Positions 1-34,694 of a stretch of DNA of 64,000 nucleotides are shown piece by piece. Origin of the DNA: Phragmitibacter flavus (GTDB lineage Bacteria; Verrucomicrobiota; Verrucomicrobiia; Verrucomicrobiales; Verrucomicrobiaceae). Within the stretch, counting starts at the first letter, position 1. The number at the start of each line of letters is the position of its first letter. The notes beneath the pieces were generated by a model that ran no database searches, was not told the origin of the DNA, and saw nothing but the letters and a program-made list of their open reading frames with translations. The translations under genes and the position numbers were made by a program. The stretch is taken from the NCBI RefSeq assembly GCF_005780165.1, contig NZ_VAUV01000004.1:186001-250000 (forward strand). Direction: 5' to 3'.

Positions 1-54
1 TGAGCCGCAAACAGTTCGTAGGCCGGGCAGCATTTAGACACTTGGAGGATGATG

Positions 55-873
55 ATGACGACACCACACTTGATAACTGAATCGAATCTCTCAACCGCAT
101 GGGCGCGTGCCTTTCTTCATGCTCATGATGGAGCAGAAGATGCTCTAGTCGTTGCCATTCGCGGTTTTGAGCAGGACATGCCCAATGAGGATGACGTGAT
201 TGCAAATGAACTTGATGCTCAATTGTCATGCCACGACATCCCTCGGATTGACCAAACAGCGCTGACCATCGTGCCATATGAGAAGTGGCTTCGGGAAGGC
301 AAAATTAGCATTGAACAGCTAACGGAATGGTATCTGCAATCTATGCTGCCAAGACTCAAGGCTAGATGCAGCAAGAACAGTCATGGAACCTATTTCGAGC
401 GATTCGTTGCTTTCTCAGGGACAAGACTCAACAAAAAGCGTTTAGAATACCGAACGATTAACCAGCTCAAATACGTCACTGATTTTTGGCGAAAAAAGGT
501 TGCTGGTAAGAACCGTTCCCGACCACGTCAGTCTGCTCTACAGTTAGCATGTTTTGATCCGGCGAAAGATGATACCGGCTCAGCTCTCTGCGGTTTCCCA
601 TGCCTTCAACAAGTTAGCTTCACCTACCATGAGGCAGGTTCCTTGGAGGTGACTGCATATTACCCAACCCAGTATCTATTTGATCGTGCATACGGAAACT
701 ATTTGGGACTCTGTCAGCTTGGGCATGTAGTAGCGCACTCTCTTGGTGGGAAACTCACGCGGTTTACATGCTTCACTGCACGACCCGAAGTGGGAAAGAA
801 GAAACCAGACCGGGCATTCATCAACATGCTCCGCAAGTATGTAGCCGAAAACTCTTTGGAGGCTGCACCATGA
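55..873 (+). CDS. Divergent thymidylate synthase-like protein
   Basis: The C-terminal half follows the thymidylate synthase (TS) core: a catalytic-cysteine loop (GFPCLQQ), a strand with F-T-Y-H-E, then a segment aligning with the nucleotide-binding region (YPTQYLFDRAYGNYLGL). The cysteine is kept. The Arg-Ser-x-Asp that holds the dUMP phosphate in classical TS is not recognisable here (Y-P-T-Q instead), so an ordinary dUMP methylation role is doubtful. Three ATGs stand in a row at 49, 52 and 55. The one at 55 has the best spacing from the GGAGG at 44-48. The stop overlaps the next start (ATGA, 870-873), so the gene is translationally coupled to the kinase. With the second TS homologue at 2553 it may form a heteromeric or two-step base-modifying pair. 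That last point is inference. Confidence 0.65.
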   Translation: MTTPHLITESNLSTAWARAFLHAHDGAEDALVVAIRGFEQDMPNEDDVIANELDAQLSCHDIPRIDQTALTIVPYEKWLREGKISIEQLTEWYLQSMLPRLKARCSKNSHGTYFERFVAFSGTRLNKKRLEYRTINQLKYVTDFWRKKVAGKNRSRPRQSALQLACFDPAKDDTGSALCGFPCLQQVSFTYHEAGSLEVTAYYPTQYLFDRAYGNYLGLCQLGHVVAHSLGGKLTRFTCFTARPEVGKKKPDRAFINMLRKYVAENSLEAAP

Positions 874-1478
874 CGCTAACAACCAAAGGCCAACTCTTTG
901 TATTCGAAGGCGTTGATGCCGCAGGCAAGTCCTCGATTAGCGCTCGATTTGTTGATTGGCTTCGCAGCCAAGGCAAGACAGCTGAACCCTTTTCGTTTCC
1001 GGGCAATTTTCCCGGCACAATTGGTGACCTTGTATATCGGATTCATCACGATCGCGCAGCCTTTGGACTGGATCCCCTCACTGAGTCGAGTCTGCAGACG
1101 CTTCACATTGCCGCTCATCTTGATGCAATCGAGGCACGAATCATTCCAAGCCTAGAAGCTGGCAAAACTGTGATTCTAGACCGTTACTGGTGGTCAACAA
1201 GGGTCTATGGCGTGGTGGGAGGAGCGCGGGCGGAGGTGCTCGATAAACTCATTGAGGCAGAGCAAATCGCATGGGGGGATTGGCTTCCAACCGCGTTGTT
1301 TTGTATCGGAAGATCCACCCCATTGAGAGATGAACCTCTGGATCGCTGGTCTCGATGGAAGGACGGCTACGACGCGATGATTCGGAAAGAATCAGGCCGT
1401 TACCCGATCCATTCAATCCAGAACGAGAGCAGCATAGAAGAGTGCCTCTCTGAGATCACTAGCTGTTGCCCAATCTAG
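870..1478 (+). CDS. Thymidylate kinase-like P-loop nucleotide kinase
   Basis: About 202 residues, typical for the dTMP kinase family. The N-terminal P-loop (FEGVDAAGKSS, about residues 12-22) matches the thymidylate kinase signature. A SFPG motif follows about 25 residues later and an LDRYWWS motif (family DR-Y substrate-binding motif) lies mid-protein. The family phosphorylates dTMP to dTDP. In this operon it more likely acts on a modified thymidine monophosphate made by the flanking TS homologues (inference). The start overlaps the stop of the upstream gene and has a TTGGAGG ribosome-binding site at 856-862. A housekeeping tmk is less likely because of the neighbours. A truncated paralogue lies on the other strand at 4466-4638. 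Confidence 0.75.
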   Translation: MTLTTKGQLFVFEGVDAAGKSSISARFVDWLRSQGKTAEPFSFPGNFPGTIGDLVYRIHHDRAAFGLDPLTESSLQTLHIAAHLDAIEARIIPSLEAGKTVILDRYWWSTRVYGVVGGARAEVLDKLIEAEQIAWGDWLPTALFCIGRSTPLRDEPLDRWSRWKDGYDAMIRKESGRYPIHSIQNESSIEECLSEITSCCPI

Positions 1479-1480
1479 GC

Positions 1481-2575
1481 ATGAAACGAAAACAGCAAGA
1501 CAAAGCGTTTGATCAGCAGGAAATGCTGATCCTTCCGCCATCTCCGATTATCCCCACCCTAGAAGCGGGTGATTTTGGATTTTTGCGCCCCCTGAAGGTG
1601 TCCCGTGTATTCAGCTCCTACTGGCGCTTTGCAGCGGAGAGGCAACGGGTGTTCCTCCGGCGCATTCGTGGCGCGAGTCCCCCATGGAGTGATGATCCGG
1701 TTCTTCAGATTCACAAATTCACCAACGCTTACCGCGCTTCGGACAGAGTTAGCCAATACCTCATCCGCCGAGTTATTTACGATAAAGAGCACAATCTGCG
1801 AGATACTTTTTTCAGAATCCTCTTGTTTAAAATCTTCAACAGGATCGACACTTGGGAACTGTTGGAAGGTGAGTTCGGCAAAGTGTCACTCGATAATTAT
1901 TCGTTCAAAAGTTATGATCGCGTGCTCTCGGAAGCGATGGCAAAAGGCGAGCGGCTATATTCTCCGGCCTATATTATGCCCTCTGGCGGCCGATCCTCCG
2001 AGTATGCCCGCAAGCATCAGATGCATCTTCGCCTACTGGAGCGTATGATTGAAGATGAGCTTCCAGAGCAGCTATCAGAAGCACCGACAATGGCCCGCAG
2101 CTTCGAATTGATCCGTGAATATCCATCGATTGGAGACTTCTTGGCATATCAATATGTAACGGATATCAACTACAGTCAGATTACGGATTTCCGAGAAACT
2201 GAATTCGTTGTTCCTGGGCCAGGGGCCCGTGACGGAATTAAGAAATGTTTCACTGACTTCGGTGGATTAACAGAACCCGAGATCATTAAGTTCATCGCGA
2301 AACGACAAGACGAGTGCTTCTCTGCCGTTGGTGTATCATTCCCGACACTCTGGGGGCGACGGCTTCAACTCATTGATTGCCAGAACTTGTTTTGTGAAGT
2401 GGACAAGTATGCCCGAGTTGCTCATCCCGAGATCTTAGGGATATCAGGCCGCACTCGGATCAAGCAAAAGCTGAAACCGACGTCTGAGCCACTCCAACTT
2501 TTTTATCCTCCAAAGTGGGGAATTAATAACCTACTAAACGCGGATCCTGAATATGTTCCAAACCCTAGAAGCTAG
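1481..2575 (+). CDS. HMUDK_hel-like putative DNA-base hypermodification protein
   Basis: A protein of 364 residues resembling the family annotated as 5-hmdU DNA kinase helical domain or alpha-glutamyl/putrescinyl thymine pyrophosphorylase (ADDT). Recognised segments are the N-terminal FSSYWRFAAERQRVF..R, IHKFTNAYRASDRVSQYL, FFRILLFKIFNRIDTWELL, a central block FLAYQYVTDINYSQ, the glycine-rich VPGPGARDGI and a C-terminal cysteine-containing DCQNLFCEVDKYAR. In phages with hypermodified thymine this fold acts on hydroxymethyl-uracil in DNA. Its role in a bacterial operon is unknown. A TTG at 1466 would extend the frame, but the ATG at 1481 lies just past the upstream stop. The 3' end overlaps the next gene by 23 bases, supporting one transcript. 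Confidence 0.6.
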   Translation: MKRKQQDKAFDQQEMLILPPSPIIPTLEAGDFGFLRPLKVSRVFSSYWRFAAERQRVFLRRIRGASPPWSDDPVLQIHKFTNAYRASDRVSQYLIRRVIYDKEHNLRDTFFRILLFKIFNRIDTWELLEGEFGKVSLDNYSFKSYDRVLSEAMAKGERLYSPAYIMPSGGRSSEYARKHQMHLRLLERMIEDELPEQLSEAPTMARSFELIREYPSIGDFLAYQYVTDINYSQITDFRETEFVVPGPGARDGIKKCFTDFGGLTEPEIIKFIAKRQDECFSAVGVSFPTLWGRRLQLIDCQNLFCEVDKYARVAHPEILGISGRTRIKQKLKPTSEPLQLFYPPKWGINNLLNADPEYVPNPRS

Positions 2576-3554
2576 AACAGCAAACGATTTATGGAAGCAG
2601 GCCGCGGAATGGTTTCGGCAAGACGATAAATCCGTGAGGCAAGCCAGTCGCAATGGCCCGACACAAGAGGTGATGAATGTCGCACTCTCACTTCAATACC
2701 CTCGCCAGCGATGGATTGCGGCGCGAGTTCCGGCGATGAATCCTGCTTTTGCTATCGCCGAAGTGGTCTGGATTGTGTCCGGTCGAAACGATTCGGCGAT
2801 GCTCAACTATTTCAATGCCGTCTTGCCTCGATACGCCGGTGAAGGAACAACTTACCATGGAGCTTATGGCCATCGGATACGCTCCAGTTTCGGAGTCGAT
2901 CAGTTAGAGCGGGCATACCATGCGCTTTCAGCCAAATCGGATTCAAGGCAGGTGGTGCTTCAAATCTGGGATTCGCGGATAGACCTGCCAAGTGAGAACG
3001 GCTCCGAAGCAAGCAAAGATGTTCCGTGTAATGTTTGCTCGCTGCTCAAAGTTCGCGACGGGAAACTGGAATGGACTCAGATCATGCGAAGTAACGATCT
3101 TTTTCGTGGGTTCCCACATAATGTTATTCAATTTAGTTCGCTTCAGGAAATACTCGCCGGATGGCTGAAAGTGGAGGTTGGTGCCTATCATCATTATAGC
3201 GACAGTCTTCACCTGTATGATCAAGATGGGGATGTGGCGTCTCATTTCGAAGACATCAGCAGTCCCGACAATGAAGACACTTTGAGCTTGGTGAAGTCAG
3301 AATCAGACGCTGCTTTTCTCATGCTTGGACAGCTTTGTGACTTTTGTGCGAATACTGAGCGATCCTCTGATGAGGTATTTAATCATGTTTCCAACCTGCA
3401 CCTACCAGCAGGACACGCAAATCTGGCACGAGTATTGGCTGCCGATGCTTTGAGACGCAGGAATGCATTTGGCCAAGCTCAAGAGGTCATGCAACAATGC
3501 ACCAATCCGTGCCTGCGTTTTATGACGCAACGCTGGTTCTCCAAGCCGCGATGA
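2553..3554 (+). CDS. Thymidylate synthase family protein (possible dUMP hydroxymethylase)
   Basis: A 333-residue TS homologue with recognisable core motifs: the active-site loop D-V-P-C-N-V, the nucleotide-binding R-S-N-D-L-F-R-G-F-P-H-N, the helix VIQFSSLQEILAGWL and the terminal Y-H-H-Y-S-D-S-L-H-L-Y. The catalytic Cys and the RSND motif are present. The residue after the Cys is Asn where classical TS has His. This PCN-type clade is common beside base-modification genes and could transfer a hydroxymethyl rather than a methyl group (inference). The start overlaps the upstream gene. It is the last gene of the operon; debris follows. Confidence 0.75.
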   Translation: MFQTLEARTANDLWKQAAEWFRQDDKSVRQASRNGPTQEVMNVALSLQYPRQRWIAARVPAMNPAFAIAEVVWIVSGRNDSAMLNYFNAVLPRYAGEGTTYHGAYGHRIRSSFGVDQLERAYHALSAKSDSRQVVLQIWDSRIDLPSENGSEASKDVPCNVCSLLKVRDGKLEWTQIMRSNDLFRGFPHNVIQFSSLQEILAGWLKVEVGAYHHYSDSLHLYDQDGDVASHFEDISSPDNEDTLSLVKSESDAAFLMLGQLCDFCANTERSSDEVFNHVSNLHLPAGHANLARVLAADALRRRNAFGQAQEVMQQCTNPCLRFMTQRWFSKPR

Positions 3555-3649
3555 TTGCTCACACCAGTATGGACTCCTTAAATCTGATGGCACTTACTCT
3601 AATGCATATTCCAGGATTTAACCACGGAACCAAGTCGATATTTTTCCAT

Positions 3650-3990
3650 CCGGTTCCAACGGTGGAAGCAGCGCACGCTTGAAGCCGCACTCGCAGTGGA
3701 CCAAGACAGCTGTGTGTTTTGGCAAGTTGCACAGGATGTGCGGCTTAATTTTGTGCTCCTCCAATTCGGAAAGATTGGTCGATTGCCGCCCGCCCGAGCC
3801 GAGATCGAGATCGGCGTAGCCCAACGACAATGCCTTGCGAGACGCATCGCCACCCAAGCAGAGGTTCAACACGAGCAGCAAAGCTGGGCAGCCTTACGAA
3901 ACAGCCGGCACTACGGCACCGACTGGCGCTTCACCACCAAGGACGCACGCATCAAACTCAAACGACTCTACCCATCATCTCTGCTGGATT
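3650..3990 (+). pseudogene. Possible transposase remnant
   Basis: A stretch without an intact gene between the TS gene and the TIR fragment. In one plus frame the end reads TDWRFTTKDARIKLKRLYPS, which looks like the tail of a transposase of an IS family I cannot name safely. The upstream frame is weakly gene-like and has no ribosome-binding site. The break into TIR-homologous sequence follows immediately. I regard it as mobile-element debris that marks a rearrangement joint; identity is uncertain. Confidence 0.25.
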
Positions 3991-4460
3991 GAACCAATAG
4001 ATCGGGAGTCGTTAATCGCTGGGTCTCTTGACGAAGGCATCAATCGCGCCTTGGACGCGAGCGAATATCTGGTGGATTGCGTCTCCGTGAGCATTCCCGG
4101 CTCGCGATGGGTTACAGAGGAGATTGAACACTTTCTCAGCAAGGAAAACCGACCGCTCGAGCGGGTGTTGATCTGCCGGGGGGGTGCTAGCGCGGACAAT
4201 GATCCAGAGGGGGACGAGCGGGCCTCCGTCTGGATCGCCGCAATAAACAAGCGTTTGGGCCGAAAACCGCGTGAGCATTTGACGCCGGATTTGCGTGAGG
4301 AGTTCGTTGAGGATGCCACTGCCTCCGCGCTCAGCTTGCTGGCTCCCTTGGTTGGAATGGCGGACAAAGATACGCTGCTTGACCGCCGTGCCAGGTTTCT
4401 CGCCCGTTCGTGGAGGATCGCGGCATGGTTAGTGGTTATGTTAGTGGCGTCTGGTGGCCT
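3985..4460 (+). pseudogene. Truncated TIR-TM gene (paralogue of 29.0-30.8 kb)
   Basis: An internal fragment of a TIR protein, beginning at D-R-E-S-L-I-A-G-S-L-D-E-G and running to the start of a transmembrane helix. It matches the gene at 29033-30754 almost codon by codon: LDASEYLV, SRWVTEEIEHFLSKENRP, RVLICR, EGDERAS and HLTPDLREE all recur. The first strand with the FLSHSHKD motif is missing and the frame runs into unrelated sequence after about 4455. It keeps the W-x3-E context but has no start of its own. This is a broken duplicate, produced by recombination between the two sites or by loss of a second TIR operon. Confidence 0.8.
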
Positions 4461-4465
4461 GTGGA

Positions 4466-4638
4466 TCATGGTAAAGTTGATACACCATTGCTCCCAGTGT
4501 CCCAGGGGACATTCTAGGGAAGGATAAGAGCCGTGTATCCACACCGTGATTAACGAGCTCTTTTATATATTGACCACGCATTGTGGACTTGCCTGCCGCA
4601 TCAACGCCCTCAAATACAATAAGTCGTGGAACCTCCAT
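4466..4638 (-). pseudogene. Truncated thymidylate kinase-like fragment
   Basis: On the minus strand an ATG at 4638 opens MEVPRLIVFEGVDAAGKST, the P-loop of a thymidylate kinase, followed by LLSFPRMSPGTLGAMVYQLYHD. It then breaks off, reading a few foreign residues to a stop at 4441. It corresponds to the first 60 or so residues of the intact kinase at 870-1478 but is clearly diverged from it, so it is not a recent tandem copy. It abuts the TIR fragment end to end in opposite orientation, so the junction at about 4460 is a recombination joint. A second nucleotide-modification cluster may once have stood here. Confidence 0.75.
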
Positions 4639-4784
4639 GGGGCATTCTAACTCGAACGCTAGCTTCGTATGAATACGCCAGGACCGGAGGAAAATGCTCC
4701 GGATTCTCATTTGCCAATATCAACTTTACTGTTCCAATACACAAAACCTTGCATTTTTTCGAGAAAAGCCTAGGAAGTATAGTC

Positions 4785-5282
4785 ATGTCCACCGAATCGA
4801 CCCGGCGTCATGTCTTTATAAGTCATCATCACAAGGATGATGCGACGGTAGACAAGATGACAAAGTTGCTTGAAAAGCATGGTTCCGACACTCGGAACAG
4901 TTCAATTCGGGCGAAGCCAGCGAACCAGGAACGACTTGATCGAGGGCTCGTTAAAGCGGCCACAATTCAGCGCCTCCTTCGCATGAAGATGTCTTGGGCG
5001 GGAGCAGTGGTTGTCATCATCGGTAAGGAGACGCACTTACGCCCATGGGTGAATTGGGAGATTCAAGAGGCAGAACGGCAGGGAAAGCGCATTGTCGGGG
5101 TATGGGAAGAGGGTGGCAAGGATTACCAACTCCCGACAAATTTGGATGCATACGCTGATGCGATCGTTGGATGGCAAGCCGATCAAATTATGGGAGCGAT
5201 TGACGGGAAAATCAACAACTGGCGGAAGCCAGATGGCAGTTCGCCTCCTCCTAGGTCAATCAAACGGATAACTTGTCAATAG
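4785..5282 (+). CDS. ThsB-like TIR-domain protein (DUF1863 family)
   Basis: A stand-alone TIR protein of 165 residues. The first strand and loop read HVFISHHHKDD (residues 9-19); an RPWVNWEIQEAE motif holds Trp88 and the putative catalytic Glu92. The spacing, with a long insertion between strand one and the AGAVVVIIG strand, is that of Thoeris ThsB proteins, which make a cyclic-ADP-ribose-type signal from NAD+ on infection. The start at 4785 has TAGGAAG at 4771-4777; an upstream ATG at 4626 is in frame but would add unrelated residues. No ThsA with a SIR2 domain is adjacent. The next gene, 14 bases on, is Nmad2-like, so the pair may be an operon. Confidence 0.75.
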   Translation: MSTESTRRHVFISHHHKDDATVDKMTKLLEKHGSDTRNSSIRAKPANQERLDRGLVKAATIQRLLRMKMSWAGAVVVIIGKETHLRPWVNWEIQEAERQGKRIVGVWEEGGKDYQLPTNLDAYADAIVGWQADQIMGAIDGKINNWRKPDGSSPPPRSIKRITCQ

Positions 5283-5296
5283 TGCTTTTCTTAATC

Positions 5297-5917
5297 ATGA
5301 AATTATTTTCTTACGTAGTGGCACGAGACTTTGGCTTCGCTCCTAATCCTTTTTTTGGATTCTGCACGTTGGCCTGTTGCAAACCTGATATTCGGAGGAC
5401 TGCAGAAGTCGGCGATTGGGTTGCAGGAATTGGCTCAATGAAAAAGGGCCTCGGCTACCAGCTTGTTTATGCAATGAAGATCTCTGAGATCATAACCTTT
5501 AATGATTATTGGCGCGATTCGCGCTTCTTTCTTAAGCGACCCAAGTTCGACAGCTCCATTAAGCATTCTTACGGCGACAATATCTACCACAAAGATGCCC
5601 GAACAAATCGATGGATTCAGGAGGACTCTCATCACAGTCTTGAACGAGGAGAAACAAATGAAGCTAACCTTGATCGAGATACCGGTAGCACCGACAAGGT
5701 GATTATTTCAAAAAGGTTCGCCTATTGGGGACGGTTTGGTCCAGTTGTTCCACCCCAGCTCGAGAATCTTGACGGTCAGTCGATCTTCATTCGAACCTCT
5801 GCACACAAGTGCAAATTCACTGATGAATTTGTGCGCTCCTTTGTCGATTGGTTCGAGTCTTTTGGAGACCAAGGAGCCTGCGCCCCTCCAGGTGATTGGC
5901 GTTTCAACCCCAAATAG
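5297..5917 (+). CDS. Nmad2-like putative nucleotide-modification-associated protein
   Basis: A protein of about 206 residues beginning MKLFSYVVARDFGFAPNPF. It contains CTLACCKPDIRRTA, the strand VGDWVAGIGS, LVYAMKISEI and the block YGDNIYH...RWIQEDSHHS, ending near KFTDEFVRSFVDWF. These segments fit the family named nucleotide modification associated domain 2 (Nmad2), which has been linked by gene neighbourhood to base-modification and conflict systems. The biochemical activity is unknown to me. The ATG at 5297 is preferred over the in-frame upstream start because the family begins with this strand. It follows the ThsB-like TIR gene closely and lies in the same island as the TS/kinase operon, which fits the name. 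Confidence 0.55.
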   Translation: MKLFSYVVARDFGFAPNPFFGFCTLACCKPDIRRTAEVGDWVAGIGSMKKGLGYQLVYAMKISEIITFNDYWRDSRFFLKRPKFDSSIKHSYGDNIYHKDARTNRWIQEDSHHSLERGETNEANLDRDTGSTDKVIISKRFAYWGRFGPVVPPQLENLDGQSIFIRTSAHKCKFTDEFVRSFVDWFESFGDQGACAPPGDWRFNPK

Positions 5918-6184: not shown

Positions 6185-7740
6185 GTGAACACTTCTGAGC
6201 CAACGCCACAGCGCCGGTTCGCGGCGTTCATTTCCTACCGGCACCTCGACAACACCGACGAGGGTCGCCGATGGGCAGAGTGGCTGCACCATTGGATCGA
6301 AAGCTATCGTTTGCCACGCCGCTTATCGGCACCCTAGGCGAGTTCGGGGTGATCCCGCCGCGCGTGGCACCTGTATTTCGCGACGAATGGGAGCTGCGGG
6401 GCGGCGGCGATTTGAAAGCGCTGACTGAAGAAGGATTACGCGGCAGTGAATGCCTCATCGTGCAAATCGCATTATTCCCGTGTTGATTGAAGGCGAACCG
6501 GGCGCTGCCGAGGCCGCCCCCAGTGATCCGGTGCGCCGTGCGCGTGAATACTTGCCCGAGACTCTGCGGCTAGGCATTCGTGCAGCGGGTCCGCCCACTC
6601 CAGACGTTCTGCATCCTATCGATGAAACAGCGCCCTTTTGCGCTGACACCCTGCGACTTTCGCCCAAAGGGCACGCATGACATGGGTTATACCAATGCCG
6701 CTGCGTATCGGGAATAGCTGGAACGTTCAGGACTGTCTAAATCCCGGCTGCGCGACCTCGAAGAACGTTACGCCGATCGCCTCCGACTCGAAAGGTTGCG
6801 CATCATGTCGGGGCTGCTGGGCGTGAACCTCGACGAACTGAACCAACGCGATGCGGCGGAGTGCGCACGGCACTGGCGAAAGCTTTTCTTTCTCAGCGCC
6901 GCGGTAGTGGCGGTGATCGCGCTCCTTGGTGCAGCAACGTGGATGCAAAGTGATAGACGGCAGCATCTCCTCACCACCGCAAGCGAGCGCGATCACGCTG
7001 CGGCGGAGCAGGCGCTGGTGGAGGATGATTGGCCGCTGGCTGTCGCCTACCTGGATCGATCTTTGATCTATTGGCCCCAAAATCAGGATGCGGTCAGCCT
7101 GCTTTGGAGCTTACTGCGCTACAGACCGGCAGCGGACTCACTGGTGTCAAGGCAGCGCCATGAGTTGAATCAGCCAGTGCAAGGGCTGGCGTGGAGTCCG
7201 GATTCACAGCAATTGTTGGTGCGGCTTGCGGAAGGCGAATTGCGTGTGCTCAATGTAGCGGCGGGACAGTTCGTCGAGCCCGCGATCAACGTGGGGTAAA
7301 CGCCGCAAATCTATGAGTGGACGCGCGATGGAAGCGCGCTGCATTTCATCACCACGGAAGGGGCTGGTGGCGCGCCAGTCCGACGGGGAGTATCACCAGT
7401 TCATATGGCCGCCGCCACGGCGCGAACCTAGGCCGGGGAGCCTTTTAGTCCTGATAGAAAGCAGATCATCGCGCGGGCGAATGACGGAGCGATCTTCATT
7501 CTAGACGCGGTCACTGGCGAACCGGTCGTCGCTCTCGCGATCCCGTCGGGACTCGATTCAAATGCCATTCCGCGTGCAGCTTGGCGACCAGATGGTCGAG
7601 CTGTGCTCATCGAAACGCCTGTCGATTTTAGCGGACGCATGGGCTTGTTCTTTTCTTCGTTTGAAGATGCGACCGCCGCCTTGATGATTTCAGGCCGACG
7701 GCCAATCTCGCCCAATCTGGATTGCGAAGTCATCAATGGC
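6185..7740 (+). pseudogene. Decayed TIR-TM-beta-propeller gene
   Basis: A GTG at 6185 opens a TIR domain (RRFAAFISYRHLDN), but the frame shifts near 6320, again near 6450, and contains stops at about 6718 and 7297 and more beyond. Pieces read through in order: GEFGVIPPRVAPVFRDEWEL, then the strand IPVLIEGEPG, an RDLEERYADRLRLERLR linker, a transmembrane helix (FFLSAAVVAVIALLGAATWM, about 6885-6945) and WD40-like blades such as VQGLAWSPDSQQLLVRL and RAAWRPDGRAVLIETP. The original protein would have had the TIR-TM-propeller layout of the intact gene at 11643-13832. Homology stops where the serine recombinase remnant begins at about 7690-7740. Confidence 0.8.
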
Positions 7741-8190
7741 CCGCGCGGGATCATTGCGAAGGGAGCACGTCGCGGCCTTGCCATTCTTGCTGACGTTGTT
7801 GCGAGTGTAGTAGAGGTAAGGATTGAGGTCCCGGTCCTTCTTGCCGCCCGGTTTAGGTGTGAGGCGATGAACGCATTCTCCGCAGCGGATGATGCCCTTG
7901 AGCAGAGACCGATGGGTGTTGCGGTCTAGCAATGCCTGCTTGTGCTTCTGCCCTTTGCCGCTCAGCGCGTCATTGGCTTCCTGCCAGAGCTTTTCACTCA
8001 CCAGCGCCTCATGCTCGCCGGAATAGTCCTCTCCGTTGTGGTAAACGACTCCCTTGTACAGAGGATTGGTGACGATGACCTTGATTTTGTTCGGGATGGA
8101 CCGCTTGCCCCCTACAACCATTTCATTGCCCCGGCGACTCTTCACCGACCGTTCAGGGGTACGCAGCCCTTCTCGCTAAAAAGCTGGGAC
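7690..8190 (-). pseudogene. Large serine recombinase remnant (C-terminal part)
   Basis: On the minus strand, the recombinase domain reads VTNPLYKGVVYHNGEDYSGE and ends in a zinc-ribbon block (LLKGIIRCGECVHRLTP). This is the middle of a large serine recombinase such as those that insert phages and resistance elements. Upstream a stop interrupts the matching REGLRTPERSVKSRR stretch at about 8160. Downstream it ends abruptly inside the decayed TIR gene. The catalytic serine domain is absent, so it is inactive. Its placement suggests an insertion into, or deletion through, the TIR-propeller gene. Confidence 0.75.
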
Positions 8191-8191
8191 A

Positions 8192-9517
8192 TCACGGACA
8201 GCCTTCATCCTTCATAATCGCCTCAACGACATGGTTTGAAGTCATAAGCTCCTCCACGATCGCAGAGTCGGGAAAGAGGCAATTGCGGAAACTGCATCTT
8301 TTGAACCAATCACTTCGAATCAACCCCCGAAAACGGCATGACTCGAACACGACGTTATCAAACATAACCTCGTTTTCTGGGCTTCGGAAATTCATCGTCC
8401 CAGAAGGCGAGGGATCAGTACAATGAGAGATTACTGAGTTTGAGAACGAGCACACTTCACCGCCTACCACGACGGCGGAACTAGGATTTGATTTACGAGA
8501 AGCAAATCTGACGGCCCCAAAATTTTTAATCTGCATCACTCCACCGTCGAATGTGCAATTGGTAAAATCGCAGTCGATCATGTTGGTGTCCAGAAATCCT
8601 CCGCCGGAGAAAGAACAATTCAAAAACTTCGCTGAGGAAACGGCCATGTTTGGTGCGCTTCCCCAGATGACATTGCCAAAATAAACGCGCTGGAATTCTA
8701 CAGAATTCACCGAGCCAGACGCAAACGTCGTGTCCGACAAGGCATCATTCTGATAGACGCCCCCTTCCCATTTGCAGGACTTGAGAAACCATCGGCTTTT
8801 CCCGGGAACAGTGGATGCAGCAAGGATTTTGGCATTCAGCCTAACGTGCGTGTCCAATGCTTCGTTTTCGGCGTCCACGAGCAATTTACCCCTGAGTCTC
8901 TCGTCGCCCCTGAACTCTGTGCTTTTGGTGTGGAAAAATTCTTGGCCAAGCACTTTGCGCGCATTGCCTATGGTATTGAGGGTATTTTTCCGCGCCACCT
9001 CCCGAACAAATTCTGAAGTGAATGCCAGCAATCCTGAGGCAGCCAAGAGAAATCCACCAAACCCGGCACTCGCCGTTAGCCACTTTTTGCGAACAATTCG
9101 CCTACGCAGGACACGAAGTCGTTTATCGAGTGCGGCGTGGATTACGACTTCTCCCGCAACTTCCGGTACTTCGACGTATTGAGCTGCCGCGATCATGCCT
9201 GACAACGGCTCGGGAAGTGCGACTGGGCCGCCTTCATCCTTAAAGCGGATTGGAATGACCGGTCGTCCCGCCGAGTGCGCCAAGTAATATTCGGCATGGC
9301 ACCAGGAGCTATGGGCGTATCCAGGCGTAATGAGAGCAACGACGAGATCGCATTTCCGAAGTGCCTCCATGATGACAGTTTTAAATTCTTCACCAGCCAA
9401 TGTTTCCTCAGTATCCTGGAAAACGGTAAACCGTTCCCTCGATAGCTCGGACCTAAGTTGAGCGGCAACCCCGCAGCCGTCTGCGCGCGCATAGCTAAGA
9501 AATACCTTTGCCTTCAT
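8192..9517 (-). CDS. TIR-TM-pentapeptide-repeat-like protein
   Basis: A 441-residue protein. The TIR domain (residues 3-115) has VFLSYARADG at the start and SSWCHAEYYLA with putative catalytic Glu76. One transmembrane helix lies at about 147-166 (LTASAGFGGFLLAASGLLAF). From about 235 to 430 there are irregular repeats of the form xxFxxCxFxxxxF (for example LNCSFSGGGFLDTNMIDCDF), suggesting a right-handed beta-helix related to pentapeptide repeats. A TIR NADase coupled to a beta-helix across a membrane anchor is an effector-like design; the helix may sense a ligand or bind a target (inference). It follows the TIR-SLOG gene by about 20 bases on the same strand and is probably co-transcribed with it. 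Confidence 0.75.
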   Translation of the reverse strand: MKAKVFLSYARADGCGVAAQLRSELSRERFTVFQDTEETLAGEEFKTVIMEALRKCDLVVALITPGYAHSSWCHAEYYLAHSAGRPVIPIRFKDEGGPVALPEPLSGMIAAAQYVEVPEVAGEVVIHAALDKRLRVLRRRIVRKKWLTASAGFGGFLLAASGLLAFTSEFVREVARKNTLNTIGNARKVLGQEFFHTKSTEFRGDERLRGKLLVDAENEALDTHVRLNAKILAASTVPGKSRWFLKSCKWEGGVYQNDALSDTTFASGSVNSVEFQRVYFGNVIWGSAPNMAVSSAKFLNCSFSGGGFLDTNMIDCDFTNCTFDGGVMQIKNFGAVRFASRKSNPSSAVVVGGEVCSFSNSVISHCTDPSPSGTMNFRSPENEVMFDNVVFESCRFRGLIRSDWFKRCSFRNCLFPDSAIVEELMTSNHVVEAIMKDEGCP

Positions 9518-9537
9518 TTGCCGGTGGATGACGCGAA

Positions 9538-11574
9538 TTATTTGTCTGGAGTGACTGGCAAATCGAGTCGGCTCAGTCCTAGCAGAACGATCTCGATGAT
9601 CCGGCCCTGATCAATGGTTTCAAACAACTCAGTGTGTTCCTCTGTCGTAAGCAGCGGATTGATTCCCGACAGTCCTTTATCACGAATGAGGGCGACGATT
9701 TCTGGATAATCCAGCCATGGAACTCCGTGCTTTTGGTAAAGCGCTTTCATCTCGTCGGCGAAGGGGGCTCGCTTCTGATAGTCCCAGGTGGCTTCCTCCC
9801 TGTTTTCGCCCCGTAGCAGATCGATGACTAGCTTTGCGACTCCGCCAAACGCGCCGATCAGGAACACTGGCTGGCCCACTTGCACGGAAAGCACGATCTC
9901 CTCCAGAACGCCTGGGATGCGGCTCGCATACCATTGCTCCTTGCGTGTGCCATCTTCCAAGACCTTGACCGTAGGTCCAAAGGTGCCACCGACGACGATG
10001 CGAGCCACGACGCCACTTTGTGTGCGATCGGCCTGAAAGGCTCGCATCTCGGTCATGCCCCGAGCCCAGGCAAAACGATGCTCCGCCGATTTATCACCTG
10101 GGAAGAATTTTGGCTCTCGGGTAAAGTCGGAGTGTAAAGTTTCTTCCACTTCTGCTGGACGCGGCAGCTCCACGGTTTTCGACACTCGGTTGAGCGCAGA
10201 GAGATCTTTGACTGAAAGGCGCGGCAGCGGCCAGCCGCGGTGATTCACGATGCGTTCGAATGGCTGGACGCCCTCGACGCTATTATGCGTACGAACGAGC
10301 TCGAAGAGTTTCTGAGTGTAGCCTTCCGCGCCCAGGTGCCCGCCATAGGCGAGCGTCGCGCCTTTGATCAGCAAGTAGCGCGAGAGATCGAGCATACAGC
10401 TTTCGAGGTGCATAGCATCAAGACCGCATTCCGCGATGTCGGTGCTCTCGGACATGGAAAGCGAGACTGGCTGGCCGCGCAGCGACGGCGTGATAGCGAG
10501 CCGCTGAAAGGGCGTGGAGACCTTGATGCCAGCCTTTGCGAGCCGTTTCGCTTCGCTGACACCCACAGGCGGATCTGGATAGAGGATTTCAAGCTTCGGA
10601 TCCCTTCCCACTAGTGTCGCAAGCTCCGGCGGACGAGCGAAGATAAAATCACCTGGCTGCTTGAATTGTCCAAGGCGCACAAGATCATACAGTTGCCGGA
10701 GAGTTTCTTTGAGCAGAAGGTCGATGCCCTTTTGTGGGTCGCCGTCCCAGCGCAGACGGGGCACATTGCCTAGGTATGGGAAGCTGCGCACCTCATGGCC
10801 CGACAGCGCATCGACTACTACCACGGGTCGTTGGTGCTCTTTGGCAAGCAAGACTTCCTCGCGACACCATTCGCGTGTGGCATAGGTGTCGGTGAGCACG
10901 GCAAGCAGGGAGGACCGCTGGACGCCCCGCTCGATGGACTCGGCAAATCTCGACCCGCTAGCGATGTCCCCCGAATCCACCCAAGCCTCGACCGGCTGAT
11001 CAGCTTTCAGTGCGTCGATGAAGCATCGCGTTGCTTTAGGATCGCGGTCAATGTCTGCTTTTGCATGGCTGAGGAAAAGAGTGACCGGCACCTCGAACTC
11101 GCTGTTTTCCACCGCCTCCAGATTCGACAAGTAGCGGCACAGCTCGACCACAATCCGGCGCACGACGAAAGCGTCGCAGGCTTTTTTATCAGGTTGCAAG
11201 TGGGCTTTCGCGAAACTCAGGTCATTCAACCGCGGATCGAGGGGCCACGCGTCATGGGAAAGCTGGATGGGCACGAAACGCCAGGCGGGAGGCTGCGCCT
11301 GCGTGCACACGTCTGCCATGAACTGACACCATTCGTCGTCGATATTCAGTTGGTCATCCGCGAGCACGACCAGGAAATTGCGCTCCGCAAAATCGAGGTG
11401 CAATGACGGCGGGGGACGATTCCCTTTTTTGGTTGGACAAAAGACGGTCGGCACACGGAGTCCAGGGACAAGAATGTCGCCGTTTAGTTGCTGATGAATG
11501 TGGCAAGCCAGTTCGCAGGCGGATGTGGACTTGGGATGAAAGAGGAGATGGACGAGTAAGGGCTGGCGTTTCAT
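9538..11574 (-). CDS. TIR-SLOG fusion protein
   Basis: A 678-residue protein with three parts. The N-terminal 150 residues look like a degenerate TIR-like Rossmann domain (FLVVLADDQ, WCQFMADV). A canonical TIR follows at 162-290 (VTLFLSHAKADID; TREWCREEVLLAK with putative catalytic Glu240). From about 330 onward is a SLOG-type domain (LYPDPPVGVSE; TLAYGGHLGAEGYTQKLFEL; VFLIGAFGGVAKLVIDLL), the nucleotide-ligand fold used by ThsA to bind TIR-made signals. Having producer and sensor folds in one chain suggests a self-activating NADase (inference). The first domain lacks a clear catalytic Glu. It is related in layout to the gene at 32147-34663. Confidence 0.8.
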   Translation of the reverse strand: MKRQPLLVHLLFHPKSTSACELACHIHQQLNGDILVPGLRVPTVFCPTKKGNRPPPSLHLDFAERNFLVVLADDQLNIDDEWCQFMADVCTQAQPPAWRFVPIQLSHDAWPLDPRLNDLSFAKAHLQPDKKACDAFVVRRIVVELCRYLSNLEAVENSEFEVPVTLFLSHAKADIDRDPKATRCFIDALKADQPVEAWVDSGDIASGSRFAESIERGVQRSSLLAVLTDTYATREWCREEVLLAKEHQRPVVVVDALSGHEVRSFPYLGNVPRLRWDGDPQKGIDLLLKETLRQLYDLVRLGQFKQPGDFIFARPPELATLVGRDPKLEILYPDPPVGVSEAKRLAKAGIKVSTPFQRLAITPSLRGQPVSLSMSESTDIAECGLDAMHLESCMLDLSRYLLIKGATLAYGGHLGAEGYTQKLFELVRTHNSVEGVQPFERIVNHRGWPLPRLSVKDLSALNRVSKTVELPRPAEVEETLHSDFTREPKFFPGDKSAEHRFAWARGMTEMRAFQADRTQSGVVARIVVGGTFGPTVKVLEDGTRKEQWYASRIPGVLEEIVLSVQVGQPVFLIGAFGGVAKLVIDLLRGENREEATWDYQKRAPFADEMKALYQKHGVPWLDYPEIVALIRDKGLSGINPLLTTEEHTELFETIDQGRIIEIVLLGLSRLDLPVTPDK

Positions 11575-11642
11575 GAGGGTTGTCTCCGAATCGATAATTT
11601 TTGTGGTTCAGTTCGATTACCTGGGCGCAGCCTGTCTATTCC

Positions 11643-13832
11643 TCACAATCCACCAGGCTGCGGTGTCGTGTCATGTTTCGGCAGCGGATATTGTTCTAGA
11701 ATCATCTGGGCAGGCTTCTGTGCGGGGATGAGGTCTGTTTGACGGGATGGCGTCGCGGGTGGAGCAGGGGGGCCGACTTTCCAAATGAGCAGGCGCTCTG
11801 GCTTGTCTTCGGAGTTTACTTCGAAGGAAGCCGCAAGCCAGTGGCCGGCGTCGTCGGTATAGACGTGGTCAAGACGGGAGTCGGGGGCTGCTGCTGCCGG
11901 TGGCAATTCCACGCCGATTCGGAACACAGGTTTCGCTTTCCTGATGAGCACGACTTCGTAATCTGTGGCCGCCGCCAGAGTGAAGACGTCGTTCTGCGGA
12001 ACCGGCGCTAAACTGGCCGCACGAACCCCACGCAATACGCCTACCGGAGGGCGGGCTGTAACGACGAAATCTGGGAAAAGGAGCGCCCGCAAATCGCCGC
12101 CATCCACACGATAGTATGCTTCGAAAGGTTGGTGAGCTGGAAGCGGCCACACCTTGGCAATCATAGACTCCATCAAAAGCGGCGGGCGGTAGCTCGCAGT
12201 ATCGAGAGCCAGCCAGAATTCCCGGCCGGACCGCCTGGGCGTGCCGCCGAAAAAGTTAAACGTCGTGATTCTCAGGAAGATTTGTGCATCTCCGGGCGAG
12301 AGTTCGAAAGTTTCCAACTCAGGACTCGTCACCGGCCCGATTTCTGTCATGGGCAACTCAAACTGCCGCGCTGCTGGTTTGGGTTGGAGATTAAGTCCCC
12401 AAGTCACCACTCCGACTTTGTATTCGGTGAACCGGCGCCATACGGCGACGGCGAGAGTATCATCTCTGGTGCTGAGCCGGAAAATCGCCTCGCCAAAACG
12501 GTCGGTACCATCTGGCTCGGTTTCGGGTGTTGGCAGATCGACTGGCAGTTTCAACTCCGTGCGTGATTCGATATTCAGCGTCACGGGATCGAGTAGGAAA
12601 ACTTGCGGCGGACGCTCCACCCCAGCAAGCACGCAGAGTCGTCCGGCCTTCCAGGCCATCTCCACCTGTGGCGGAAAACTTGCCAGTTGATAAGAGGTCA
12701 ACTTCAAATCCACTTCACGGCGCGGCTCTCCATTGTGGGGGATGCGAGTGATTTTTCCCGCTGCGTGAACATAGATCGCGTCCGGGTGGAAAAGCACCCT
12801 CGGATTGAAATCGTCACCTGTAGGAACCGTCTTGCGCCAGCCGTGCTGATCAATGAGTGCAACAAGTCCGTTACTGGCCTCCGAATCATGCATACGATAG
12901 CCGACTACTCGCCATTCGCCCCCGGAAGAGCCCACCGCGTGCGTGCGCCAACCAGGCGGCAGCTTGATGTCCGCCGCTGGAGTGAGAAGCCGCTGATTTC
13001 TGGCCTGCTGCCACTTCGAGCGTAGCTCCTCCTTCCCCCAAGGCGCCAGCCTGGCCGCCTCCTGCCAAAGTTCTTCTGCCTCCATGAAACGCAAACTGGT
13101 TTCAGCTGATCGTGCGTTGCCTGCGATCGTAAGCCGTCGCTGCGCCACATCATGCGCCCACCAAGCCCCAATGCATGAGGTCAACAACAGGCAGCAAGCG
13201 GTGATGCCGGTCTGAATCATTCGCGTGCGCTGCCGCACCGCACTGAAGGCAGATCGGATTTCATCTACCGCATGCAGGCGATTGGGATTTCCCTCAACAG
13301 AGGCCAAAGCTTCGGTCCAAATCTGACTTGCCCGATATGACTCACGGCCAGTGATCGCTTCCAAAACATGAATCGAAGGACTGCCGGCCAGTTCTGCGCC
13401 GGGGAGTTCGAAAACGCCTTTGTGCTGGGCCAGCCGTTTCAGACGATTGGGCAAATTATTTGGTGTATTCGGTAGAAAGAAGATCGTTTGAATGCGTGGT
13501 TCCCGGCGGCGAGCAAAATGCCAATCGACTTCATCAAAGATCCACGGCGCTTCACGCTCGTTCACGGCCTTTGGAGTGATCACAACCAGATGCAGTTGGC
13601 AGCGACGAATTTCGCGCTGGATGCGCGCGCGAAATGCCTGGCCACCTTGGATGCTGGTGTGATCGAGAAAAACCAGGTACTTGTTTTCTAGTGCTCGGCA
13701 GAGTTCGTGGGCATAAGCTTCCCCGTCACGTCTTGTGTAGGTGATGAAGATATCGTAGCCGAACAGCCTCTGCCAGGCGGCTTCCAGAATTCTTCGAGCA
13801 ACCCCAATGCCAATCATATCGCTGCACCACAT
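11643..13832 (-). CDS. TIR-TM-beta-propeller-like protein
   Basis: About 729 residues from the ATG at 13832, chosen because GGAGAATT precedes it. The open frame extends upstream to 14036, but that part looks like intergenic debris. The TIR domain starts at YDIFITYTRRDGEAY and carries APWIFDEVDWHF with putative catalytic Glu near 101. A transmembrane helix follows (TGITACCLLLTSCIGAWW, about 205-225), then an EAEELWQEAARLAPW helical hairpin and a long C-terminal region of beta-rich repeats compatible with a propeller. It is the intact counterpart of the decayed gene at 6185-7740. It is transcribed in the same direction as the TIR-SLOG gene with a 68-base gap. Inner-membrane anchoring with a cytoplasmic TIR is the likely topology. 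Confidence 0.75.
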   Translation of the reverse strand: MWCSDMIGIGVARRILEAAWQRLFGYDIFITYTRRDGEAYAHELCRALENKYLVFLDHTSIQGGQAFRARIQREIRRCQLHLVVITPKAVNEREAPWIFDEVDWHFARRREPRIQTIFFLPNTPNNLPNRLKRLAQHKGVFELPGAELAGSPSIHVLEAITGRESYRASQIWTEALASVEGNPNRLHAVDEIRSAFSAVRQRTRMIQTGITACCLLLTSCIGAWWAHDVAQRRLTIAGNARSAETSLRFMEAEELWQEAARLAPWGKEELRSKWQQARNQRLLTPAADIKLPPGWRTHAVGSSGGEWRVVGYRMHDSEASNGLVALIDQHGWRKTVPTGDDFNPRVLFHPDAIYVHAAGKITRIPHNGEPRREVDLKLTSYQLASFPPQVEMAWKAGRLCVLAGVERPPQVFLLDPVTLNIESRTELKLPVDLPTPETEPDGTDRFGEAIFRLSTRDDTLAVAVWRRFTEYKVGVVTWGLNLQPKPAARQFELPMTEIGPVTSPELETFELSPGDAQIFLRITTFNFFGGTPRRSGREFWLALDTASYRPPLLMESMIAKVWPLPAHQPFEAYYRVDGGDLRALLFPDFVVTARPPVGVLRGVRAASLAPVPQNDVFTLAAATDYEVVLIRKAKPVFRIGVELPPAAAAPDSRLDHVYTDDAGHWLAASFEVNSEDKPERLLIWKVGPPAPPATPSRQTDLIPAQKPAQMILEQYPLPKHDTTPQPGGL

Positions 13833-14039
13833 AATTCTCCAGTCTATGTCTGTCAACCTGGCTGCGACGTATCGACCGTCAGTCGACGTCCGTTCTGCTG
13901 GAACTAGTCTAAGAGCCTGTTGAAAACAGAGCCGGGATCCGAACTGGCCGGAATATTGGTCCGCTAACTGGTAATACTTCGCTCTAGGGGATAGAGCGGG
14001 GCATAGCGGATTTTTCCGGCCCGCGCTGTCAGGCACGCT

Positions 14040-14661: not shown

Positions 14662-16587
14662 ATGAAACTCGCCACCCTCCGACTCACCAACTTCCAATGC
14701 TTCGGCCCCGAAACCCAGGAAATCTCCTTTGAAGACTCGACCACAATGATCATAGGGCCGAATGGATCGGGGAAAACCGCAATCCTTCAAGCACTCAGCC
14801 GCATGTTCGACGCGAACCCGGGACGACGAAGCGTTAAAGCTGATGATTTCCATGTGGGGATCGATGAAGAGGAGCCACCAGAAGAACGCAGCTTCACAAT
14901 CGAAGCCGACTTCCTTCTGCCGGAGGCAGGAACCGACAGCGGCGCGAATGCGATTCCTCCATGCTTCAATCACATGAGGCTGGATGAGGCAGGAGAGGTT
15001 CTCAAAGTTCGCTTTCGATTGGCGGCGACGATGGGACCCAACGGAGACATCGCCGATTCTCTTTCTTACGTTGTCGGCAAGGAAGGCAATGGCGAGGACA
15101 AGATAAGGGGCGTCCCTCGTACTGACCGGAACAACATCGCGGTCTATTATCTGCCAGCTCGGCGCGATCCAAATGATCACATCCGCTCAAGCACCACTTC
15201 ACTTCTGGGGCGCATCGTCCGGGCCGTAGATTGGCAGAAAGAGGCTGAGGATTACAAGGAATCCGTTTCCGAACTTCAGGCACTCATTGAGGCCAACCCT
15301 GCCGTGAAAGCCACCAGCAAAAGTATCTCGAAGAGCTGGGCGGCGCTTCACAAGGGAAGCCATTTCAAGGATGCCGCAATTACGTTCGGAGCGGACAGCC
15401 TCGAAAAGCTAATTCAGAACTTCTCCGTCCAGTTCAATCCGGCCCACGCTTCGAAGACCATCGACTATTCCCTCCTAAGCGACGGCCAGAAATCCTTGCT
15501 GTATCTGTCTCTCGTCTCGGCCTACATTGAGATTGGCCGCAAGGCTATGGCTCAGGAAACCGGTGAGGAACTGGGTATTGATCTGGACAAACTGAACCCC
15601 CCGGTTTTCTCGATCATTGCGGTTGAAGAGCCCGAGAACAGCTTGTCGCCCCACTACCTCGGGAGGATCAACAAGTTGCTCGCGAAAACCTGTTCGGCTA
15701 CCGATGCCCAGGCTATCGTCACGACCCATGCTCCATCGATGCTCCGTAGAATAGAGCCGGAGCACATTCGCTTCGCCAGGCTCGGCACCGAGCGAACGGC
15801 TTCAGTGAAGCAGATTGAACTGCCTCCGGAGACTGAGATGGACGCCCACAAATTCGTCCGTGAGGGCCTCCTTTCCAACCCCGAAATCTACTTCGCCCGG
15901 ATGGTGATTCTTGGCGAGGGAGCGAGCGAGGACATTGTGCTCCCCAAGCTCTTCGAAGCACGCAAGCTGCCGTTGGATGAAAACGGTATCGTGCTGGCTC
16001 AATTGGGCGGTCGCCACGTGAACTATCTCTGGAAAATTCTCTCGGATCTCAGAATTCCCCATGCGACGTTACTTGACCTAGACTTGGCCCGCTATCACGG
16101 AGGCTGGGGGCGCATCAAATACGCAAAGGATCAGTTGGCGAAGGTCGGAGTGGATGTCGGGAAGGCTACTTTGCCGAAATGGAATGCTTCAAGTCCACTT
16201 GGAAAAGATTCCGACTATGGACTGAAATGGTTGGGGTTCCTCGGAGATAAGGGGGTTTTCTTCTCACAGCCGCTAGACCTCGACTTTAGCATGAGTCAGG
16301 CATTCCCCGAATCATATGGACTGGACACCAGAGATCAAGAGCAACCGGATGACGTGACCATCAAGTCAGTTCTCGGGAACAGCCACGCCGACGATACTTG
16401 GTATTCCAAAACTCTAAAAAAGGGCTTCGATGATTATCACCGGCTGTTCAAGGTAGGCAGCAAACCGACAGCTCACATTGAGGCACTCTCAAACCTCGAC
16501 CTTGATGAGATTGATGCGGATCTTCCCGAACAGTATCGCGAACTGATCGCCTATGTGTCAGAGAAACTGAAGGAGGTCTTTGAGTGA
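14662..16587 (+). CDS. gajA: Gabija GajA-like OLD-family ATPase/nuclease
   Basis: A 641-residue OLD-family protein: ABC-type ATPase plus a C-terminal TOPRIM nuclease. The Walker A is GPNGSGKT (residues 32-39), the signature SLLSDGQKSLLYLSL lies near 270, Walker B is FSIIAVEEPENSLSPHY and the H-motif IVTTHAPSML. The TOPRIM part has VILGEGASEDIVLPKLF and the metal-binding LLDLDLARYHGG. GajA forms a tetramer that nicks DNA when nucleotide levels drop during phage replication. The stop overlaps the start of gajB (GTGA), the standard two-gene Gabija order. A lone OLD nuclease is ruled out by that neighbour. Confidence 0.88.
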   Translation: MKLATLRLTNFQCFGPETQEISFEDSTTMIIGPNGSGKTAILQALSRMFDANPGRRSVKADDFHVGIDEEEPPEERSFTIEADFLLPEAGTDSGANAIPPCFNHMRLDEAGEVLKVRFRLAATMGPNGDIADSLSYVVGKEGNGEDKIRGVPRTDRNNIAVYYLPARRDPNDHIRSSTTSLLGRIVRAVDWQKEAEDYKESVSELQALIEANPAVKATSKSISKSWAALHKGSHFKDAAITFGADSLEKLIQNFSVQFNPAHASKTIDYSLLSDGQKSLLYLSLVSAYIEIGRKAMAQETGEELGIDLDKLNPPVFSIIAVEEPENSLSPHYLGRINKLLAKTCSATDAQAIVTTHAPSMLRRIEPEHIRFARLGTERTASVKQIELPPETEMDAHKFVREGLLSNPEIYFARMVILGEGASEDIVLPKLFEARKLPLDENGIVLAQLGGRHVNYLWKILSDLRIPHATLLDLDLARYHGGWGRIKYAKDQLAKVGVDVGKATLPKWNASSPLGKDSDYGLKWLGFLGDKGVFFSQPLDLDFSMSQAFPESYGLDTRDQEQPDDVTIKSVLGNSHADDTWYSKTLKKGFDDYHRLFKVGSKPTAHIEALSNLDLDEIDADLPEQYRELIAYVSEKLKEVFE

Positions 16588-29018: not shown

Positions 29019-29032
29019 AACGACATCCGCTC

Positions 29033-34663: not shown

Positions 34664-34694
34664 GGCTTTGAATGGCTGATAATTTTGCAACGGA

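Follow-up and report, generated by a model that had tools for sequence, protein, structure and literature searches.

A TIR gene and an Nmad2 gene lie side by side in a defence island

The window, that is, the whole 64,000-nucleotide stretch of Phragmitibacter flavus DNA analyzed here, carries two intact genes placed one behind the other on the same strand. The first opens with an ATG at 4785 and closes with a TAG at 5280-5282, the second runs from an ATG at 5297-5299 to a TAG at 5917, and a gap of 14 bases (5283-5296) lies between them. These genes and their annotated neighbours are listed below.

1..80, + strand: 3' end of an ImmA/IrrE-type peptidase gene whose start lies 786 bases upstream of the window (PF06114, 39.9 bits for the portion 5' of the window)
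49..873, + strand: distant thymidylate-synthase-like protein (TS2), Pro-Cys motif kept in the alignment (TIGR03283, 25 bits, below the cut-off of 174.55)
768..1478, + strand: P-loop dNMP kinase (PF02223, 48.3 bits); the true start is probably downstream of 768
1466..2575, + strand: 5-hmdU DNA kinase, helical domain (PF18723, 361.3 bits)
2553..3554, + strand: thymidylate synthase (TS) homologue with Cys and RSND...N residues in the alignment (PF00303, 70.6 bits)
3555..4784, no strand assigned: broken genes between TS and TIR (open reading frames and translations, by eye)
4785..5282, + strand: ThsB-type TIR protein, 165 aa, with the W88/E92 (WVNWE) motif (PF08937 and PDLC00418)
5297..5917, + strand: Nmad2 protein, 206 aa (PF18753), a predicted PUA-like (EVE/YTH/ASCH-like) base reader
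8192..9517, - strand: TIR-pentapeptide-repeat protein, encoded on the strand of the TIR-SLOG gene and 20 bases 3' of it (PF13676, 67.8 bits; Pentapeptide_3, 30.9 bits)
9538..11574, - strand: TIR-SLOG protein (TIR plus LD_cluster2), a candidate ThsA-like effector (PF18163, 189.1 bits; TIR_2, 45.3 bits)

The TIR protein matched the Pfam family ThsB_TIR (PF08937) with 70 bits, against a cut-off of 21.2, and TIR_2 with 30.3 bits, and the PADLOC model of ThsB (PDLC00418) was matched over nearly its full length with 190.9 bits. The assignment as a ThsB-type TIR, made earlier in a sequence-only reading of this DNA, is thereby borne out. Both W88 and E92 were kept in all 95 family TIRs of an alignment, and from the motif E92 is the putative catalytic glutamate. 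The same reading had placed an Nmad2-like gene 14 bases after the TIR gene; the gap is as described, and the Nmad2 identity holds by a wide margin in a profile search of 5297-5917 (PF18753, 225 bits against a cut-off of 26.1, residues 2-202 of 206). The Nmad2 protein had no match in a PADLOC search, and a genome search found it to be the single Nmad2 of the whole genome. A promoter scan 5' of the TIR gene returned no site on the + strand.

The pair had also been placed in the same island as a TS/kinase operon. Such an operon is present at 49-3554, with TS-like, dNMP kinase, 5-hmdU kinase, and TS genes, but the pair does not follow straight on from it, as about 1.2 kb of broken genes lie between. 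By eye, this broken stretch contains a TIR-like fragment (+ strand, about 3961-4527), which had no match in a PADLOC search, and an N-terminal fragment of a kinase (- strand, 4441-4710). In the alignment, the Pro-Cys motif and an RSND-like stretch are conserved among the TS homologues, and the final Asn of the window TS presumably indicates dUMP rather than dCMP as its substrate. Upstream, the operon extends beyond the 5' end of the window with an acyl-carrier-like gene at -1421 to -1134 (PP-binding, 18.2 bits, just under the cut-off), an HTH gene, and the ImmA/IrrE peptidase gene. An unbroken order is found in another genome of the same class (G021, locus L130), where an ACP-like gene is followed by HTH, ImmA/IrrE, TS2, dCTP-deaminase-like, fused kinase-HMUDK (5-hmdU kinase), TS, TIR, and Nmad2 genes; a dNMP kinase fused to an HMUDK domain is likewise found in locus L040.

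Further defence genes were seen in the window. An intact-looking Gabija pair lies at 14662-18233 (+ strand; PADLOC, GajA 738 bits, GajB 675 bits) and is followed by a caspase-domain gene at 18336-19544. Other TIR genes comprise one with a long C-terminal region at 11643-14036 (- strand), an apparently broken TIR gene, judged by eye, at about 6190-7300 (+ strand), and a second TIR-SLOG cluster2 protein of the island at 32147-34717 (- strand; PF18163, 107.6 bits; TIR_2, 37.5 bits), which adjoins a DUF4062-amidase gene (30836-32140) and a TIR gene (29015-30754, + strand).

The TIR-Nmad2 pair is conserved across many phyla

A scan of a bacterial collection holding one genome per species returned 246 relatives of the TIR family, and the best 80 of these were analyzed. 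Nmad2 lies directly 3' of the TIR gene in 78 of the 80 loci, a figure that covers the nearer relatives, because only the best 80 of 246 were kept, and that includes some near-identical loci (e.g., L075/L076 and L097/L098). Of the two exceptions, one is a contig that stops 39 bases past the TIR gene (L038), and the other has a disrupted TIR reading frame, still followed by Nmad2 (L088). The relatives span Planctomycetes, Verrucomicrobia, Chloroflexi, Cyanobacteria, Acidobacteria, Bacteroidetes, several proteobacterial classes, and a Helicobacteraceae bin. In 70 loci the ends of both genes could be placed, and in 67 of them the distance between the genes is within -30 to +30 bases. Among plasmids, TIR relatives occur in 12 records and Nmad2 relatives in 17 (15 of the 17 were opened), and the two lie side by side in 11 of the 12. 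The pairing noticed in the sequence-only reading is thus confirmed as conserved, and the TIR gene does not stand alone or beside unrelated genes in these relatives.

As a control, 30 ThsB-like TIR loci were taken from 387 genomes of the phylum. Nmad2 adjoins the TIR gene in both loci that scored above 200 bits, which are true family members, while Nmad2, HMUDK, MazG, and UDG were found in none of the 28 loci with TIRs of 65 bits or less (stretches of about 1.8-3.4 kb). In addition, the TIR and Nmad2 distances correlate over 76 loci (r = 0.75; maximum of 200 permutations, 0.15), as in co-divergence. Because the window is rich in TIR and other defence genes, the two could have been chance neighbours in a defence island, a reading to which we assign a vanishingly small probability; chance adjacency is ruled out by the order kept in nearly all of the best 80 of 246 relatives and in none of the 28 other ThsB-like TIRs.

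A phage-borne module was considered as well and rejected, as Nmad2 was not found in a phage collection of 50,697 records; seven IMG/VR contigs do contain relatives, at least two of them with the TIR (L116 and L118).

Nmad2 can also be found apart from the family TIR. By eye, no TIR is present in the stretches of L004 and L005, and in L006-L010 a second Nmad2 subfamily adjoins, instead of a TIR gene, a conserved gene that was taken by eye for Nmad3. In three further loci (L028, 8483-9001; L033, 8456-9001; L029, 8466-8993), inspection by eye revealed an acidic, divergent TIR-like gene ahead of Nmad2, whose end resembles the TIR family and whose first half does not. The L028 gene had no Pfam match. 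These acidic genes are perhaps divergent replacements of the TIR.

The pair is linked to enzymes of thymine and uracil nucleotide modification

Among the 78 TIR-Nmad2 loci (from the best 80 of 246 relatives), 75 have modification enzymes within the fetched stretch, and this and the following neighbour counts are lower bounds because the profiles were built from few seeds. The sets comprise HMUDK with TS (26 loci), HMUDK with MazG (24), MazG with UDG (21), HMUDK only (2), and UDG only (2); no such enzyme was found in three loci, L111-L113, of which two are short contigs and the third has the TIR at the contig edge. In profile scans, the MazG proteins submitted fell into PF18722 (MazG_C) and the UDG protein submitted into PF03167. 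In 49 of the 80 loci, the TIR gene shares with at least one modification enzyme a same-strand run in which no gap exceeds 150 bases. The tie to modified nucleotides that had been proposed from gene context is upheld by these counts of TS, 5-hmdU kinase, MazG, or UDG, and the Nmad2 model, described below, points in the same direction at borderline scores. From this context, we infer that the pair may sense, or be triggered by, altered nucleotides.

The converse link is looser. Only 5 of the 21 plasmid records with HMUDK contain TIR-Nmad2, and the kinase module therefore also works elsewhere. Several of the other HMUDK plasmid records that were opened hold an ACP-HTH-ImmA/IrrE-TS-HMUDK-MazG operon. 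On plasmids L136, L137, L140, and L141, an HTH, ImmA/IrrE, TS, 5-hmdU kinase, and MazG operon recurs without TIR-Nmad2, accompanied by an acyl carrier gene in L140 and by AcpS in L136 and L141. These plasmid operons hint at an acyl-carrier step in bacterial thymidine modification.

The HMUDK, TS, and kinase families are those used in the thymidine hypermodification pathways of phages, which include 5-hmdU DNA kinases. In contrast to the phage pathways, the genes described here lie in bacterial islands and on plasmids, and the phage collection searched above yielded no Nmad2. The 5-hmdU kinase family, as its name indicates, acts on 5-hmdU DNA. This activity would suit a reading in which Nmad2 recognizes bases of phage DNA that derive from 5-hydroxymethyluracil, once the kinase has processed them, so that only phages with modified thymidine would be targeted. 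We consider this improbable, as the TS and dNMP kinase genes point instead to a precursor made in the host.

The predicted fold of Nmad2 shows a borderline resemblance to readers of modified bases

An alignment of 65 Nmad2 sequences contained 29 invariant columns, including G13, F14, A15, P16, N17, and P18. The AlphaFold2 model of Nmad2 (pLDDT, 86.6; pTM, 0.86) was searched with Foldseek, and the top of the resulting list consisted mostly of ASCH, EVE, and YTH domains; the best match was an ASCH domain with an E value of 0.012 (probability, 0.94), and none reached 0.001 or less. THYN1 and the EVE-HNH enzyme VcaM4I followed lower down. A VIA comparison of the model gave a Z score of 8.2 with YTHDC1 (rmsd, 3.7; 136 aligned) and of 7.2 with the EVE protein 2p5d, where Z scores of 7-8 are common for unmatched models. 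A sequence search of solved structures with Nmad2 returned nothing significant.

The PUA-like EVE, YTH, and ASCH readers are thus the best matches of the predicted Nmad2 fold, at borderline scores, and on this model a modified-base reader would be the likeliest role of Nmad2. An EVE-type domain serves as a modification sensor in defence, according to the available part of one report (PMC7897488). In VcaM4I the reader is fused to a nuclease, whereas the partner of Nmad2 is encoded by the separate TIR gene.

A reader-like fold would also agree with a restriction-modification-like self mark, in which the enzymes would place a modified thymidine in the DNA of the host or element, Nmad2 would respond to incoming DNA that lacks it (or be kept off as long as the mark is there), and the TIR would kill. 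Related loci do carry a biosynthetic set (dCTP deaminase-like, TS, kinases, and an acyl carrier-like gene), which favours such a mark. The MazG-UDG form (21 of 78 loci) lacks synthesis genes among the families scanned, and if a mobile element marked thymidine throughout, the entire host genome would be expected to be affected; both speak against a self mark, which we regard as unlikely.

ThsA is absent from the genome, and SLOG effectors recur as an option

A ThsB-type TIR normally has a ThsA partner, and the sequence-only reading had stated that ThsA is missing here and that Nmad2 is present instead. The first statement stands for the whole genome: the STALD SLOG (PF18185) and ThsA_Macro (PF20016) profiles had no match, with a positive control for PF18185 only (this search detects ThsA in the genome of the relative L069), and the PADLOC ThsA model (PDLC00407) reached only 22.5 bits, inside a 1424-aa frame. 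The second is too simple, as some relatives have both Nmad2 and a ThsA-type gene, and in the window the TIR-SLOG protein at 9538-11574, in which a SLOG domain is joined to a TIR near the ThsB-type TIR, could take the place of ThsA.

Four candidate effector families were scanned: the TIR-SLOG cluster2 family, to which the 9538-11574 protein belongs, TIR plus SLOG cluster3, the two-TM family TM230, and ThsA-type SIR2-STALD. At least one of them lies within 10 kb of the TIR gene in 70 of the best 80 of 246 relatives, a count that includes TM230, whose effector role is a guess. The TIR-SLOG cluster2 family lies within 6 kb of the TIR gene in 34 loci. In 17 of the 80, a SLOG effector is found in the same-strand run of the TIR gene, at several different positions; L061 and L081-L083, for example, have the order MazG-HMUDK-TIR-Nmad2-TIR-TIR-TIRX-SLOG2. 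A ThsA-type gene is present in 5 of the 80 loci (L054, L066, L069, L080, and L087) and in the plasmid locus L027. In L069, a full-length ThsA (PDLC00407, 656.6 bits) lies 16 bases upstream of MazG-HMUDK-TIR-Nmad2, and the genes of L054, L066, L080, and L087 were grouped with it by similarity. Several of the ThsA loci also contain other small TIRs.

TM230 had no Pfam match above the cut-off and sits beside TIR-Nmad2 at L049 (9312-10004) and at 30 other loci; it is a candidate membrane effector.

None of the scanned effector families was found within 10 kb in 10 of the 80 loci, and for four of these (L035, L063, L088, and L092) the flanks cover about 10 kb to either side. In the class, moreover, the genomes with an LD_cluster2 SLOG and those with Nmad2 overlap only in the genome of the window. 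A SLOG effector as an obligatory partner was rejected on these grounds. Because some loci with full flanks lack these effectors, other small TIRs occur at ThsA loci, and the overlap in the class is limited to a single genome, SLOG effectors are best viewed as a recurrent option and not as part of the core.

The loci without effectors also bring forward a quite possible, though not the favoured, explanation, namely that TIR-Nmad2 and the modification enzymes act alone, with the TIR as the terminal NADase, and that the nearby TIR-SLOG, ThsA, and two-TM genes are separate systems in the same islands. The other small TIRs at ThsA loci could then be ThsA's own partners. Such a self-contained killer is disfavoured by the 17 of 80 loci whose same-strand run includes a SLOG effector, at several positions.

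With respect to Thoeris, the window has a ThsB-type TIR with the predicted catalytic glutamate motif, some relatives hold a ThsA-type SIR2-STALD gene in the locus, and SLOG effectors recur. The differences are that the genome of the window is without ThsA and that its TIR has Nmad2 as its partner and is linked to enzymes of thymidine modification; such enzymes form no part of Thoeris in the available portions of two descriptions (PMC11204291 and PMC9503650). As ThsA was searched for and not found in the genome, we do not claim membership in Thoeris. The TIR belongs to a subfamily of ThsB and may act similarly.

A related operon of Escherichia coli very probably protects against phages

The order TS-kinase-HMUDK-TIR-Nmad2 is present in 16 of 5,426 complete E. 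coli genomes, at 7786-11576 in locus L175; the orthologues were found with an Agarivorans query, and none were found with Pseudomonas or Vreelandella queries. In the one genome opened, the operon lies beside conjugation genes. The internal gaps of the five-gene run are below 30 bases. Relatives of the window TIR, Nmad2, HMUDK, and TS are all present in it (TIR, 54% identical; Nmad2, 53% over 144 aa), while the window dNMP kinase had no match in the operon.

In the DefensePredictor study (Science 2026), 42 E. coli systems were validated, the newly validated domains include 5-hydroxymethyluracil kinase and thymidylate synthase, the legend of validated systems gives the abbreviations TS, dNMPk, 5hmdUk, and NMAD in that order, and transcription units were defined by a 30-base rule (PMC13092281). 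The accessible part of its main text gives no mechanism for TS-dNMPk-5hmdUk-NMAD and does not contain the terms TIR or Thoeris. The gene order in E. coli is that of the legend, and because the five-gene run fits both this legend and the 30-base rule in the parts of the study available, protection by a relative of the window genes is very probably already in print: we infer that the E. coli TS-kinase-5hmdUk-TIR-Nmad2 operon is very probably the phage-protective operon of that study (PMC13092281). Compared with that system, the window adds TS2, the ACP-like gene, HTH, and ImmA/IrrE, and its kinase is unmatched in the E. coli operon. The TIR-Nmad2 pair, its spread, the three enzyme modules, and the link to Thoeris are named in no text found by a literature search, and an earlier description is possible.

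The E. coli operon bears on two of the alternatives above. The gaps below 30 bases agree with the transcription-unit rule (PMC13092281, as far as available), and the cloned unit may thus lack SLOG genes, in favour of a self-contained killer; if the validated unit consists of the five genes only, the TIR works without a neighbouring SLOG effector. Against this, a TIR-TIR-TIRX-SLOG2 unit accompanies the operon in all 16 genomes, at a distance of about 2.4 kb in the one opened, and the intervening DNA has diverged or been replaced in 4 of them. In these 4, 75-77% of the whole stretch aligns, with each unit at least 80% covered, and the part between therefore differs. Detection of bases in modified-thymidine phages only is further disfavoured if the E. 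coli unit is the validated one, which in the available part of the study works in MG1655 against at least 1 of 24 E. coli phages (PMC13092281).

At L175 (E. coli), a gene separates the TIR-SLOG unit from the TIR-Nmad2 operon; in 4 of the 16 genomes it seems to be replaced, with a restriction endonuclease noted there. The gap between the two units appears to be a swap spot for defence genes.

A model for TIR-Nmad2

Bringing together the conserved pairing, the linkage to modification enzymes, the catalytic motif of the TIR, and the recurrent SLOG effectors, we propose that TIR and Nmad2 would form a conserved anti-phage core coupled to enzymes that make or process a 5-position-modified deoxyuridine, a thymidine analogue. 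In the genome of the window, this module would comprise the TS-like protein, the dNMP kinase, the 5-hmdU kinase, and TS, with the acyl-carrier-like gene and the HTH/ImmA-IrrE pair upstream. Nmad2, as a PUA-like reader, would bind the modified base or nucleotide. Infection may alter the amount or form of this mark, for example through breakdown of host DNA, takeover of the nucleotide pool, or the phage's own modified DNA, and Nmad2 would then switch the TIR on. By consuming NAD+, the TIR would either kill the cell directly or generate a nucleotide signal that a SLOG effector receives; this effector may be the TIR-SLOG protein at 9538-11574 here and a ThsA-type SIR2-SLOG protein in some Bacteroidota. 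That TIR-Nmad2 is such a Thoeris-related core, with Nmad2 reading the mark and gating the TIR, use of NAD+, and an optional SLOG effector, has in our judgement about an even chance of being correct. A point against it is the MazG-UDG form, which has neither TS nor 5-hmdU kinase; a single shared chemical trigger is therefore not assured. The stretch of broken genes that parts TIR-Nmad2 from the TS operon in the window also speaks against the model. Tentatively, and with considerable doubt, the pair may be pictured as a Thoeris-type alarm, in which a modified thymidine mark is produced by the cell itself and watched over by Nmad2, its disturbance by a phage fires the TIR, and interchangeable SLOG effectors (SIR2-STALD, TIR-LD_cluster2, and TIR plus LD_cluster3) act downstream.

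Few bacterial TIR immune enzymes have a known trigger. The TIR family described here is tied, across many phyla, to a predicted reader of modified bases and to thymidine-modification enzymes, and this linkage suggests an antiviral alarm wired to altered DNA letters. Such an alarm would join nucleotide-signal immunity and DNA hypermodification, two separate fields. Nmad2 gains a testable role, and the E. coli version can be tested in a laboratory strain. The linkage may also explain why 5-hmdU kinases are retained by bacteria as well as by phages.
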